Assembly (NCBI RefSeq): GCF_000744815.1
Contig: NZ_JQMQ01000005.1
Span: 690,055-754,054, forward strand
Origin: Phaeacidiphilus oryzae TH49
GTDB lineage: Bacteria > Actinomycetota > Actinomycetes > Streptomycetales > Streptomycetaceae
Length of the DNA: 64,000 bases
Direction: 5' to 3'
Part shown: piece by piece, positions 8,163 through 12,798 of the stretch
How the letters are laid out: the number at the start of each line of letters is the position of its first letter
How positions within the stretch are numbered: position 1 is the first letter of the stretch
Program-made: the position numbers and the translations under genes
Notes under the pieces: generated by a model
Seen by the model: the letters and a program-made list of their open reading frames with translations, nothing else
Database searches by the model: none
What the model was told of the DNA's origin: nothing

Positions 8163-8831
8163 TCACTCGCGGGCGGCGGCGGAACGGGAGGCGACGAGGA
8201 GCAGGCAGAGCACCGCCACGGCCACCACCACCCCGGTGAGCAGCAGCAGGGGGTTGAGCCGACCGGTGGTGCCGGTCGCCGCCGTCGGCGCGGCCTCCTG
8301 GGCCGGGGCCTGCGCGGGGGCGACGGCGGCGGTGGGCGACACGGCGGGCGCGGGGGCGGCGGCCGCCGCGGAGGAGGATCCGGCGGCCCTCGGGTGTCCG
8401 GCGTGGGTGGCCGGGGCGGCGGCCCTGGCACTGACCCGCGCCGGCGCGGCCGGGGCCGTGGTGGCCGGGGCGAGGACGGTCAGCACGGCGGTCATGTCCG
8501 GGTGCACCGAGCAGTAGTACTGGTATGTGCCCGGGGTGGTGAAGGTGTAGGTCCAGGACTGGCCCTTCTGGAACTGCGGCGAGTGGACGGAGGCCGGGGC
8601 GCTGGTGGTGGTGACGTCGTGCGGGGCGGGGTCCTGGTTGGTCCAGGTGACGGTGTCCCCGGCGTGGATCGTCAGCGAGCGCGGCGCGAAGGCGTAGCCC
8701 GTCATCTCCACGGCGTAGGACCGGCCGCCGGAGGCCGCGTGGGCGGGCTGGGCGGAGGCGGTCGGCAGCAGCACCGGGAGGAGCAGGCCGAGCAGGAGGG
8801 CGAACGGCAGTCCTCGTCCGAGCCGGCTCAT
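8163..8831 (-). CDS. Membrane-anchored plastocyanin/azurin-like cupredoxin
   Basis: Secreted type I copper protein of 222 residues. A signal peptide covers about residues 1-33 (LLLGLLLPVLLPTASA). The cupredoxin domain spans about 38-120 with ligands His71 (PAPHDV), Cys107, His110 and Met113 (YYCSVHPDM). A Pro/Ala-rich linker is followed by a C-terminal transmembrane helix (LLLLTGVVVAVAVLCLLLVA) and a short basic tail, so the domain faces the outside. It probably carries electrons or buffers copper. Its ATG overlaps the stop codon of the YceI-like gene by four bases, so the two are translationally coupled. Confidence 0.88.
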   Translation of the reverse strand: MSRLGRGLPFALLLGLLLPVLLPTASAQPAHAASGGRSYAVEMTGYAFAPRSLTIHAGDTVTWTNQDPAPHDVTTTSAPASVHSPQFQKGQSWTYTFTTPGTYQYYCSVHPDMTAVLTVLAPATTAPAAPARVSARAAAPATHAGHPRAAGSSSAAAAAPAPAVSPTAAVAPAQAPAQEAAPTAATGTTGRLNPLLLLTGVVVAVAVLCLLLVASRSAAARE

Positions 8832-9427
8832 ATCAGGTCCGCCGCGAGGATCAGCCGCAGCCGGTCGGCCGGCACGGTACGGGGCAGCGTGAAGCCGCAG
8901 GCCTCGCGCAGGGAGCGGTAGTCGAGCTCCCCGGTGGCGTACACGATCACCCGCTCGGCGCTCTGCTCGGTGACCCGGATCCGCAGGCCGCCCGGCTGCT
9001 CGGCCCCGCGGACCAGCCAGGCCCCGTCGGCGTCGAGCAGCCGCCCCCGCCCCCGCCCCTGCTTGCGCTCGTGCTCGTGCTCGCGGACCGTCATCCGATG
9101 CGAGCTGAAGCCCAGGTACGGGTGCCGGCCGGCGGACAGGCCGCCGCGGCCGAGCAGCGGTCGGCGGGCGAACGGCCGGTCGGTGGTGAGGTCGGCCGCG
9201 TCGGCCTCGACGTGCAGCGTCCAGTCCTCGGGCTGCTCCGCCGTGTGGAGGATCGCTCGGGCGCTGCGGAAGCGGGCCCGGAGCGTGGTGAACGGCCCCA
9301 TCCGGGCGTCGAGTTCGAGGATGCAGCGGTCCCCGGCAGCGGTGAACGCGCCGTGCTGCTGCGGGAGTGCGCCGGTGGTGGCCGCAGGGGCGGGCCCTGT
9401 CCCGGCCGGGACGGTCTGAGCGGTCAT
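8828..9427 (-). CDS. YceI-like domain protein
   Basis: A 199-residue protein resembling the YceI lipocalin-like family (isoprenoid or amphiphile binding). Support comes from a beta-rich pattern, a two-part GELDYRSL...GFTLPRTVPADRLRLILAADL ending and a middle segment comparable to YceI threshold strands. The match is weaker than for the neighbours. No clear signal peptide is visible. It begins with ATG 9427 and overlaps the cupredoxin gene by ATGA, so the pair form a two-gene operon. In many actinomycetes YceI-like proteins sit near redox and copper genes. Confidence 0.6.
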   Translation of the reverse strand: MTAQTVPAGTGPAPAATTGALPQQHGAFTAAGDRCILELDARMGPFTTLRARFRSARAILHTAEQPEDWTLHVEADAADLTTDRPFARRPLLGRGGLSAGRHPYLGFSSHRMTVREHEHERKQGRGRGRLLDADGAWLVRGAEQPGGLRIRVTEQSAERVIVYATGELDYRSLREACGFTLPRTVPADRLRLILAADLI

Positions 9428-9524: not shown

Positions 9525-10556
9525 CTAGCAGTTGCCGGTCACGTAGTCCTCGGTGGGCTTGAGCAGCATCTCGGCCCAGACGGTGTGGGTCTTCACCCAC
9601 TGGTCCACATTGAGCAGGTCGGTCACCTGCTGGCCCACGGACTCGTCCAGGTGCGCCGAGTTGAGGTGCTGGATGGCGACCTCAAGCGTCTGTGTCAGCA
9701 CCGACTGCGCGCCGGCGACGGTCGGGGTGAGCACGGTCTCCAGCCAGACGGTGTGGGTCTTGACCCACTGGTCGAGGTTGAGCAGATCGGTGACCTGCTG
9801 CCCGGGCGACTCCTCTAGGTGCGCGGAGTCGATGTGCTGGAGGATCGGCAGCAGCGTGGAGTTGAGGTCCACGCAGGAGGCGGAGCTCCCGCCGCCCGAG
9901 GTCGGCGAGGCCGAGGCGGTCGGCATCCCGCTCATCCCGCCGCCCGGGGCCGTGGGTGAGGCCGAGGCGGTGGGGGCGGCGGTCGGGGCACTGCTCGGAG
10001 TCGGCGCCGTGGTCGGCGTCGGGCTCGGCTGGGCGGCGGCGGGGAGGACGGTGACCTTCGCCTTCATGTCCGGGTGGACGGCGCAGTAGTAGCTGTAGGT
10101 GCCGGCGGTGGTGAAGGTGTACGACCAGGACTGGCCCTTCTGCAGCTGCGGGGAGCTCAGCTGCTTGGGCCCGGAGGTGGTGGTGACCGTGTGCGGGGCG
10201 GTGTCCTCGTTGGTCCAGGTGACGGTGTCGCCGACGTGGACGCTCAGCGAGGCCGGGGAGAAGGCATAACCCTTGATGGCCACCTGGACATGCTTGCTGC
10301 TGGAGTTCGCAGCGGCTCCGGCGGCCGCGGGCGCCATCGCCGCGGAGTCGGCGGCCAGTGCGGCCGCCCCTCCCGCCGGCTGCGCCGCAGAGCGCGCCGC
10401 GGGGGCGGTGGCCGGCGCCGCGGAGACGGAGGTGGACTGGGCCAGCAGCCCCAGAGCGGCCACCGCCGCCACTGCCGAGGCCACCCCGGTGGCCAGGAGC
10501 ACCCGGTCGGTGCCCCGCTTGTGAGTGGCGGCTCGGCCCTGTTCGGTGTCACGCAT
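9525..10556 (-). CDS. Secreted cupredoxin with duplicated C-terminal module
   Basis: A 343-residue protein with a membrane-spanning signal segment (residues 19-48) and a cupredoxin domain (about 88-171) with copper ligands His122, Cys158, His161 and Met164. A Pro/Thr/Ser linker follows. Two tandem modules come next, residues 238-279 and 294-335, identical at 31 of 42 positions, with the core GQQVTDLLNxDQWVKTHTVW. Cys228 and the last residue, Cys343, bracket the modules and could form a disulfide. ATG 10556 follows an AGGGGAA ribosome site. The module looks helical and I do not know its function. The gene lies 101 bases after the CopCD gene, suggesting copper handling. Confidence 0.85.
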   Translation of the reverse strand: MRDTEQGRAATHKRGTDRVLLATGVASAVAAVAALGLLAQSTSVSAAPATAPAARSAAQPAGGAAALAADSAAMAPAAAGAAANSSSKHVQVAIKGYAFSPASLSVHVGDTVTWTNEDTAPHTVTTTSGPKQLSSPQLQKGQSWSYTFTTAGTYSYYCAVHPDMKAKVTVLPAAAQPSPTPTTAPTPSSAPTAAPTASASPTAPGGGMSGMPTASASPTSGGGSSASCVDLNSTLLPILQHIDSAHLEESPGQQVTDLLNLDQWVKTHTVWLETVLTPTVAGAQSVLTQTLEVAIQHLNSAHLDESVGQQVTDLLNVDQWVKTHTVWAEMLLKPTEDYVTGNC

Positions 10557-10657: not shown

Positions 10658-12007
10658 TCAGCGCCCCGGATCGGAGCCGACCAGCACACTCGCCGCGGTC
10701 AGCACGAGCAGCACGATGCCCGTCTCGGCCGCGACCGAGTAGACGAAGGGCCGTACCGCGGCCGCGTGCCCGCGCAGCAGTACGGCGATGTCGAGCCGGT
10801 GCCGGGTCCACACACTGCTCCGCTGGGCGGCCGGCAGCACCACCGCGAGCAGCGCGATCTTCACCAGCAGCAGCCGGCCGTACCCGGTGTCCACCAGCGC
10901 GGACACCGAGCCGAGCAGCTGCCAGGAGAGGATCGCCCCGGCGACGGCGATGCCGGCCACCGAGGCCATCGCGAGCCGCGAGTAGCGCGGCACCACGAAG
11001 GCCAGCTCCTCGGACCGCCGCCCGGGCAGCACCCCGACCAGCAGTACCGCGAGCCCGCCGAGCCACAGCGAGACCCCGGCGAGGTGGACGAAGTCCGCGA
11101 TCGCCCCCCAACTGCGGTGCGGCACCTCGGCGCTGTGCCCGGCCATCCCGGTCGTGCGGAGGAGGCCGAAGCCGATCGCGGTACCGGCCAGCCGCCAGCC
11201 GGGTGAGCGGGCCGCCTGTTCCCCGCGCTGCAGGAGCGCCGCCAGCGGCACGCCGGCCAGCAGCCAGAGCAGTGCGCGGGCCGCCAGCACGGTGCCGACA
11301 TGGGTGTCCAGCGCGGCGGAGTAGGAGGAGGGCGCGAACAGCGCCGCCCCGAGCGGCTTCTGGGCCGCGTACGCCCCCTGGAGCCCGACCACCGCGACGG
11401 AGGTGAGCAGCCCCGCCACCCAGGCGGTGCCGACCAGTCCCCGTGTCCGGCGGTCGCCGCCACCCTGTGGCCAGAGTGCCGCCAGAAAGGCTCCACCGCC
11501 GACGAAGAGCGTCAGGCCGAGGTAGCCGATCAGGCGGGCCGCTGTGAGAGCGTCCCGCACGGCGATGTCGGCGGCCGGAACGGCGGCAGGAGCCGGGGCG
11601 GCGGGGGAGGCCGGGACCTGGGCCGGCTTCGCCGCACTGCAGAAGGCCACAGTGCCCGATTCCACATGCCCGTCGTCGGCCGAGACGGACCGCCAGGACA
11701 GCCGCCAAACCCCCTGCGCGGCAGGCAGATCTGTCTTCGGCAGCCCTGCGACCACCTCCGTCGCGTCCGCGTCGGCGGCACGCAGGGACAGCCGCGTAGC
11801 ACCGATCGAGATCCTGGTCTGCGAGACGTCGACCCCCTCACTGAAGACCAGGGTGATCTGCCTCGGCAGCTCCTTGAGCTTCGCGCCGGCAGCCGGCGTG
11901 GAGCGCAGCAGCTCGGCATGGGCCGAGGCGGCCGGGGCGGAGGGCAGTAGCCAGCAGAGCCAGAGCAGCAGGGCGCCGGACAACGCGGCGAGGATCCGCC
12001 TGCTCAT
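10658..12007 (-). CDS. CopC-CopD fusion, copper resistance membrane protein (YcnJ-like)
   Basis: A 449-residue protein joining a periplasmic-type CopC copper-binding domain to a CopD membrane domain. A signal peptide ends in SAPAASAHA, exposing His30 as the N-terminal copper ligand, and the CopC domain continues with LLRSTPAAGA and SADDGHVESG. About eight hydrophobic helices follow, including GYLGLTLFVGGGAFLAALW and the histidine-bearing FVHLAGVSLWLGG. It probably moves copper across the membrane. ATG 12007 overlaps the upstream gene's stop by four bases. A longer open frame upstream is not used, because the signal peptide begins exactly here. Confidence 0.88.
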   Translation of the reverse strand: MSRRILAALSGALLLWLCWLLPSAPAASAHAELLRSTPAAGAKLKELPRQITLVFSEGVDVSQTRISIGATRLSLRAADADATEVVAGLPKTDLPAAQGVWRLSWRSVSADDGHVESGTVAFCSAAKPAQVPASPAAPAPAAVPAADIAVRDALTAARLIGYLGLTLFVGGGAFLAALWPQGGGDRRTRGLVGTAWVAGLLTSVAVVGLQGAYAAQKPLGAALFAPSSYSAALDTHVGTVLAARALLWLLAGVPLAALLQRGEQAARSPGWRLAGTAIGFGLLRTTGMAGHSAEVPHRSWGAIADFVHLAGVSLWLGGLAVLLVGVLPGRRSEELAFVVPRYSRLAMASVAGIAVAGAILSWQLLGSVSALVDTGYGRLLLVKIALLAVVLPAAQRSSVWTRHRLDIAVLLRGHAAAVRPFVYSVAAETGIVLLVLTAASVLVGSDPGR

Positions 12008-12798
12008 TTCGCCTCCCCCGGACCGGAGTTCGCGGACATCACGGCGGCCGACGGCGAGCCGCAGGCGACCACCTGCACCGTGCCGTCGACCAGTCGCCCG
12101 GCGGAGCCCACCACCGAGCCGAGCAGCCCGGAGACGGCGGTCACCGAGGAAGGCGGGGAAGCCGTCACTGTGGGCGTCGGAGCCGGGATCGGAGCCGGCG
12201 TCGGAGCCGCCGTCGCCGTGGGCGCGGACAGCGCCGACAGCAGGCCGGTGACGGGCTGTGCCGCCGTCCCCACCACGGGGCCGACCACCCGCAGTCCGTT
12301 GTCGCAGGCCCCCGGGGAGCCCGTGGGGGACGGGGCCGGTGACGCCGGCTCGGTCGGCGACCCGGACCCTGACCCGGAACCCGACCCGGATCCCGCACCC
12401 GGCCCCGAGCCCGGTTGGCCCGCGATCGGCGCCGGAGCCCCGCTCAGCACCCCCGAGCCGCCGCCCCCGCCGACCCCTCCCACCGTTCCGCCGCCGACCG
12501 TTCCGAGCCCGCCGACACCTCCGCCGACCACCCCGCCGGCTCCGCCGATCGCGCCCGTCCCCGCCCCCGAAGAGTCCGACGGCGAGGTCTGCAGCGGAAC
12601 CGTCGGCGCCGCCGTGGGCGCCGCTGTGGGCGCCACCGTGGGCATCGGCGGCTGGGCCGCCGAAGCGCCGCTCGCCGCCGCCCCGCCCCCGATCCCGGAG
12701 GCGTAGCCGAGCACCACCACCACGGTCCCGGCGATCGCCGCAGCGACCACCGCGTCCCGATGGTCCCGGGGCCAAGCGCTCCTGGCGAATACGGGCAT
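12004..12798 (-). CDS. Gly/Ser/Pro-rich anchored protein upstream of CopCD
   Basis: A 264-residue protein that I cannot assign to a family. It has a short basic N-terminus, one hydrophobic helix (residues 16-33), then APT repeats (AAPTAAPTVAP-like), glycine-rich stretches (GGVVGGGVGGLG), GSGSGSGS and a conserved-looking C-terminal part with two cysteines (GACDNGLRVVGPVV and VQVVACGS). It would be exported and anchored by its N-terminus. The overlap with copC-copD and the shared promoter region indicate a copper-linked role. It starts at 12798 behind an AGGAGGCCC ribosome site. Confidence 0.72.
   Translation of the reverse strand: MPVFARSAWPRDHRDAVVAAAIAGTVVVVLGYASGIGGGAAASGASAAQPPMPTVAPTAAPTAAPTVPLQTSPSDSSGAGTGAIGGAGGVVGGGVGGLGTVGGGTVGGVGGGGGSGVLSGAPAPIAGQPGSGPGAGSGSGSGSGSGSPTEPASPAPSPTGSPGACDNGLRVVGPVVGTAAQPVTGLLSALSAPTATAAPTPAPIPAPTPTVTASPPSSVTAVSGLLGSVVGSAGRLVDGTVQVVACGSPSAAVMSANSGPGEAK

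Follow-up and report, generated by a model that had tools for sequence, protein, structure and literature searches.

The window (the whole stretch of DNA that was analysed, 64,000 nucleotides from the soil actinobacterium Phaeacidiphilus oryzae TH49) carries on its minus strand a conserved cluster of copper-related genes. The first gene of the cluster (12004..12798) encodes a protein rich in Pro, Gly and Ser that has a membrane anchor and ends in a Cys...Cys segment, and it yielded no Pfam match; counterparts of this protein occur in Amycolatopsis (e.g. L036:2793-3434). It is followed by a CopC-CopD fusion of 449 residues (10658..12007), in which both domains lie above the Pfam cut-offs (PF04234, CopC, 1.5e-14, 55.2 vs 23.3 bits; PF05425, CopD, 9.1e-16, 58.6 vs 32.1 bits), and by a protein of 343 residues (9525..10556; PF00127/PF13473) that combines a cupredoxin with a C-terminal module of two repeats. 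The last two genes encode a YceI-like protein of 199 residues (8828..9427) and a plastocyanin-like protein of 222 residues with a C-terminal membrane anchor (8163..8831), the latter identified by PF00127 (1.2e-10) and by synteny. CopC/CopD and cupredoxins are copper-handling families. The match of the 8828..9427 product to PF04264 (E 0.0062, 17.3 bits) falls under the Pfam cut-off of 23.7, and its counterparts in L010 and L020 matched nothing in Pfam; the position is syntenic in many Streptomyces loci and in L042/L043. The label YceI-like therefore rests on a weak match in the window and on synteny.

According to its translation, the fused protein fills positions 9525-10556 exactly with a 343-codon reading frame, and its domains are arranged as a putative signal or anchor, through which the protein would be secreted, a type-1 cupredoxin, a Ser/Thr/Pro linker, Cys228, two repeats and a terminal Cys343. 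The preliminary description had called the protein a cupredoxin, and rightly so. Residues 90-170 (10047..10289) match the plastocyanin/azurin family PF00127 at 1.1e-11 (45.5 bits vs a cut-off of 21.2), the type-1 copper ligand pattern His...Cys-x2-His-x2-Met is present, by pattern, at His122, Cys158, His161 and Met164, and a search of PDB sequences returns amicyanins as the nearest solved relatives of this part (3.7e-17). Assignment to the amicyanin equivalog TIGR02657 was discarded, at 67 bits against an NCBIfam cut-off of 110.2. The only cysteines of the protein are the copper ligand Cys158, Cys228 (9873..9875, near-invariant in alignment A1) and the last residue, Cys343 (9528..9530, invariant in A1), and the translation bears out the earlier statement that the latter two bracket the repeats.

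The low-complexity linker of Ser, Thr, Pro and Gly (9876..10046) includes a Met208-x2-Met211-Pro box. One or a few methionines, most often within an MP or MxMP box, occur in the linkers of 26 of 39 relatives, with MxM or MxxM in 17 of the 39, and the remaining linker sequence is Met-free Ser/Thr/Pro. Such boxes might represent a methionine site for Cu(I), or else drift within low-complexity sequence; the idea that they define a general copper motif was rejected, because 13 of the 39 linkers have no methionine.

Repeat 1 spans residues 234-281 (9714..9857), with invariant His241, His246, Gln254, Asp257 and His268, and repeat 2 spans residues 290-337 (9546..9689), with the corresponding invariant His297, His302, Gln310, Asp313 and His324 (alignments A2 and A4). 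The previously noted identity of residues 238-279 and 294-335 at 31 of 42 positions is genuine, the best of 2000 shuffles of the region reaching 13, and both copies do contain the segment GQQVTDLLNxDQWVKTHTVW. The duplication of what had been described as a 42-residue module thus stands; the conserved unit is slightly longer, at about 48 residues, and the repeat period is 56. At the DNA level the two 48-codon units have the same base at 107 of 144 positions; 23 codons are identical, 10 synonymous and 15 changed.

Over the lineages compared, little of the repeat is strictly conserved. Alignment A4 comprises 21 repeats from five lineages, in one-, two- and three-copy forms, with a mean column identity of 58% and an identity to the first repeat of the window that goes down to 27%. 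The invariant columns are His8, His13, Gln21, Asp24 and His35 only, that is, a His-x4-His, a Gln-x2-Asp and a third His. The three columns at which the window repeat has His all belong to this set (6e-4 by chance for three random columns, a figure that ignores relatedness), which is kept at copy number one (L044), two and three (L062/L063). In the three-repeat proteins (L062:1150-1638 and L063:1321-1806) a methionine often adjoins an invariant His, as in HMDAAHW, which may indicate a preference for Cu(I). The preliminary description had drawn its suggestion from the duplication and had noted the cysteine bracket, and neither turns out to be general. Relatives carry one, two or three copies, and duplication was hence rejected as the key or an essential feature; the bracket cysteines are missing from the three-repeat form, so that the bracket is lineage-specific rather than essential, and therefore the His/Asp set constitutes the core of the module. 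Copies within one protein (75% identical in Amycolatopsis, 71% in the order's second family) are more alike than copies across lineages, and they therefore look homogenised or re-duplicated.

Conservation of the repeat beyond the window was confirmed in about 40 relatives. These belong to Streptomyces and other Streptomycetaceae, to Amycolatopsis, to another family within the order and to two more lineages. Scanning of genome contigs located 30 loci, all of them in Streptomyces and Amycolatopsis. The repeat is sparse among the sampled genomes: it was found in 8 of 298 from the family, 12 of 198 from the order (two of these from another family), 5 of 346 from the class and 2 of 396 from the phylum. 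The genome of the window itself holds just two matches, both being the copies within the 9525-10556 protein. Searches with the module gave no match among plasmid sequences and no confirmed match among viral contigs, and a plasmid or phage origin was rejected on these grounds. The usual architecture is that of the window protein: anchor or signal, cupredoxin, linker, Cys, two repeats and terminal Cys. Several variants exist. One genome (G522; L044/L078) has a single Cys-bracketed repeat placed N-terminal to the cupredoxin, two others (G767 and G794; L062 and L063) have a cupredoxin followed by three repeats without bracket cysteines, and L022 has the module without a cupredoxin and no copCD match on the locus. 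Two loci encode extra proteins that consist of the two-repeat module alone (L033:4027-4368 and L035:4002-4343), and these module-only genes are flanked by the CopD gene on one side and the cupredoxin-module gene on the other.

The gene neighbourhood ties the two-repeat module to copper genes. Wherever the flanks can be read, an intact two-repeat cupredoxin gene has a CopD gene on one side and a plastocyanin gene on the other, and intact two-repeat loci with enough flank share the order CopD, cupredoxin-module, short YceI-position gene and membrane-anchored plastocyanin. The window follows this order, with CopC fused to CopD and the membrane-anchored Cys-Cys gene ahead, and in Amycolatopsis (L020, L036) CopC is separate, upstream and on the opposite strand. 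Among 101 genomes of the family, strong matches to the cluster plastocyanin (E < 1e-40) occur in four, all of which carry the module, and the cluster therefore appears to be inherited as a unit. One family genome retains a deletion remnant (L008/L079; L079 7535-7732) in which the beginning of the first cluster gene runs directly into the final part of repeat 2. This locus has lost CopCD together with the fused cupredoxin and has kept the YceI-position and plastocyanin genes. In the distant one-repeat genome (L078), a clear YceI gene (PF04264, 9e-22, 78.5 bits) is found two genes downstream, providing an independent link between YceI and the module. No copCD or YceI match was found beside the three-repeat relatives.

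The earlier view that the module is uncharacterised is upheld by searches of Pfam, NCBIfam, PDB sequences and Foldseek, none of which returned a credible match for the repeat or module. Pfam and NCBIfam scans of the whole protein, the module, single repeats and 35 relatives gave only sub-threshold matches to the module, and profile searches of PDB sequences with the module gave nothing credible. The candidates discarded were the top weak matches of the module, FTH (PF01827; 15.7 bits vs a cut-off of 22) and DUF3860 (PF12976; 13.7 vs 27), as well as an NCBIfam "Rv0910 toxin" match (22 vs 100) and Hemerythrin HHE (PF01814), which weakly matches 2 of 35 members (best E 0.014) and is not listed for the window module in the Pfam scan. 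No paper on the module, or on CopD with YceI, was found in the open-access library searched. On the evidence of the libraries and open papers covered, the repeat is an undescribed domain family; the cupredoxin and its CopCD surroundings are of kinds already known.

The repeat fold is predicted to be helical, with three helices per repeat. With a pLDDT of 67.5 and a pTM of 0.51, the AlphaFold2 model obtained for the window module is weak and was used solely for agreement on helix boundaries; that of an Amycolatopsis module (L020, 43 rows) reaches pLDDT 83.6 and pTM 0.75 and shows two similar helical sets. Both models place His8 and His13 in helix 1, Gln21 and Asp24 in a short helix 2, and His35 in a longer helix 3. 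His13 and His35 face the hydrophobic side of their helices (42 and -31 degrees off the hydrophobic moment), as would be expected of ligands in the core of a bundle; His8 lies at the edge (-98 degrees) and not clearly on the core face. Foldseek found no match with E < 2 for either model, which proves neither a new fold nor a difference, and the best VIA-align Z for the predicted module was 2.8.

Taken at the level of sequence, the retention of invariant His and Asp residues amid near-total change would be the usual mark of a ligand set, and a metal-handling role fits the His/His/Gln/Asp/His set. The reading of the module as metal-shuttling, put forward in the preliminary description, is accordingly a plausible one, and we see the chances as evenly balanced that this extracytoplasmic helical module binds metal in a copper role. 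Under this proposal, each domain of about 48 residues would bind a metal ion, most likely copper, through the candidate ligands His-x4-His of helix 1 and His of helix 3, with Gln and Asp of helix 2 acting as ligand or support. In the window protein the pair of repeats would pack into a single compact bundle, with a Cys228-Cys343 disulfide to close it and the flexible linker to connect it to the type-1 cupredoxin. The module would serve this cupredoxin and the CopC/CopD protein of the cluster by capturing or handing on copper, or by adding a further redox or metal site, and the YceI-like protein might be a quinone or isoprenoid partner. More tentatively, the repeat may be an autonomous His-x4-His/Gln-x2-Asp/His domain that provides cupredoxins with a second copper site and, on the outer side of the actinobacterial membrane, moves copper or electrons between CopC/CopD, the cupredoxins and a lipid-carrier protein.

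The invariant His residues can also be compatible with partner-protein, haem or quinone binding. It is unlikely, but worth weighing, that the module serves in docking or assembly, with a conserved surface that binds CopD, the YceI-like protein or the membrane plastocyanin and so keeps the cupredoxin in place, and with the His residues in the interface; the docking role named in the preliminary description draws no direct support from the results. The conservation of the cluster as a unit, the co-occurrence of the module with its plastocyanin, the flexible linker between domains and the good conservation of Trp/Tyr and Thr near the third His in the two-repeat form would all agree with docking, but three-repeat genomes carry the repeat away from copCD, the L044 repeat precedes the cupredoxin rather than following it, and an invariance limited to His/His/Gln/Asp/His resembles a ligand set more than an interface. 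We judge it quite improbable that the module holds a redox cofactor, be it a bis-His haem or a quinone, which would make the protein a two-centre electron carrier working with the YceI-like protein. A predicted helical bundle with invariant His is what such a carrier might display, a YceI gene neighbours the module even in the distant one-repeat genome, and in other systems YceI lipocalins have redox proteins as partners and often carry ubiquinone-8 or another isoprenoid (PMC9113575; PMC8981238). Yet three His and an invariant Asp within 48 residues suit a metal site better than haem, and no haem-protein profile of Pfam or NCBIfam matched the module, its relatives or single repeats. A structural spacer or cell-wall-facing element, its invariant residues being helix caps and core contacts, is very improbable: Ser17 and Asp29 of the repeat do resemble helix caps, but the invariant set is His-rich, omits hydrophobic core positions and is kept at 27% overall identity, and L033 and L035 encode the module on its own.

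To our knowledge, known secreted bacterial copper sites draw on a short list of folds. If the copper-binding proposal holds, a helical His module that is joined to cupredoxins and stays together with CopC/CopD and YceI-like genes would represent a new kind of copper site, and it would offer a testable route for the movement of copper or electrons outside the membrane of actinobacteria.

The fused protein shares with amicyanin- and plastocyanin-type cupredoxins (PF00127) the family profile and the His-Cys-His-Met type-1 pattern of its N-terminal domain, but solved relatives align to the cupredoxin part only and none spans the C-terminal repeat. A helical bundle proposed to hold copper also invites comparison with the Csp copper storage proteins, which are four-helix bundles with cores lined with thiolates (PMC10155185). 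The module of the window has conserved His instead; with Cys228 and Cys343 of the bracket as its sole cysteines, it lacks the many Cys lining a four-helix core, and Csp membership was rejected. The BcnA-LcoA and Cbp2D systems resemble the window in that a YceI-like gene adjoins secreted or membrane redox proteins (PMC9113575; PMC8981238), but their partner is a cytochrome, whereas the window cluster has cupredoxins and CopCD, and the YceI-like protein of the window is under the Pfam cut-off. A further parallel is given by CopC/CopD loci, including ycn-type operons with YcnI (DUF1775), where about 40% of the Bacillus-like DUF1775 set adjoin a CopCD gene (PMC8424229). In both cases CopCD stands beside a secreted copper-binding protein, but in the window the additional protein joins a cupredoxin to a helical His repeat of an unrelated kind, and YceI-like and plastocyanin genes accompany it.
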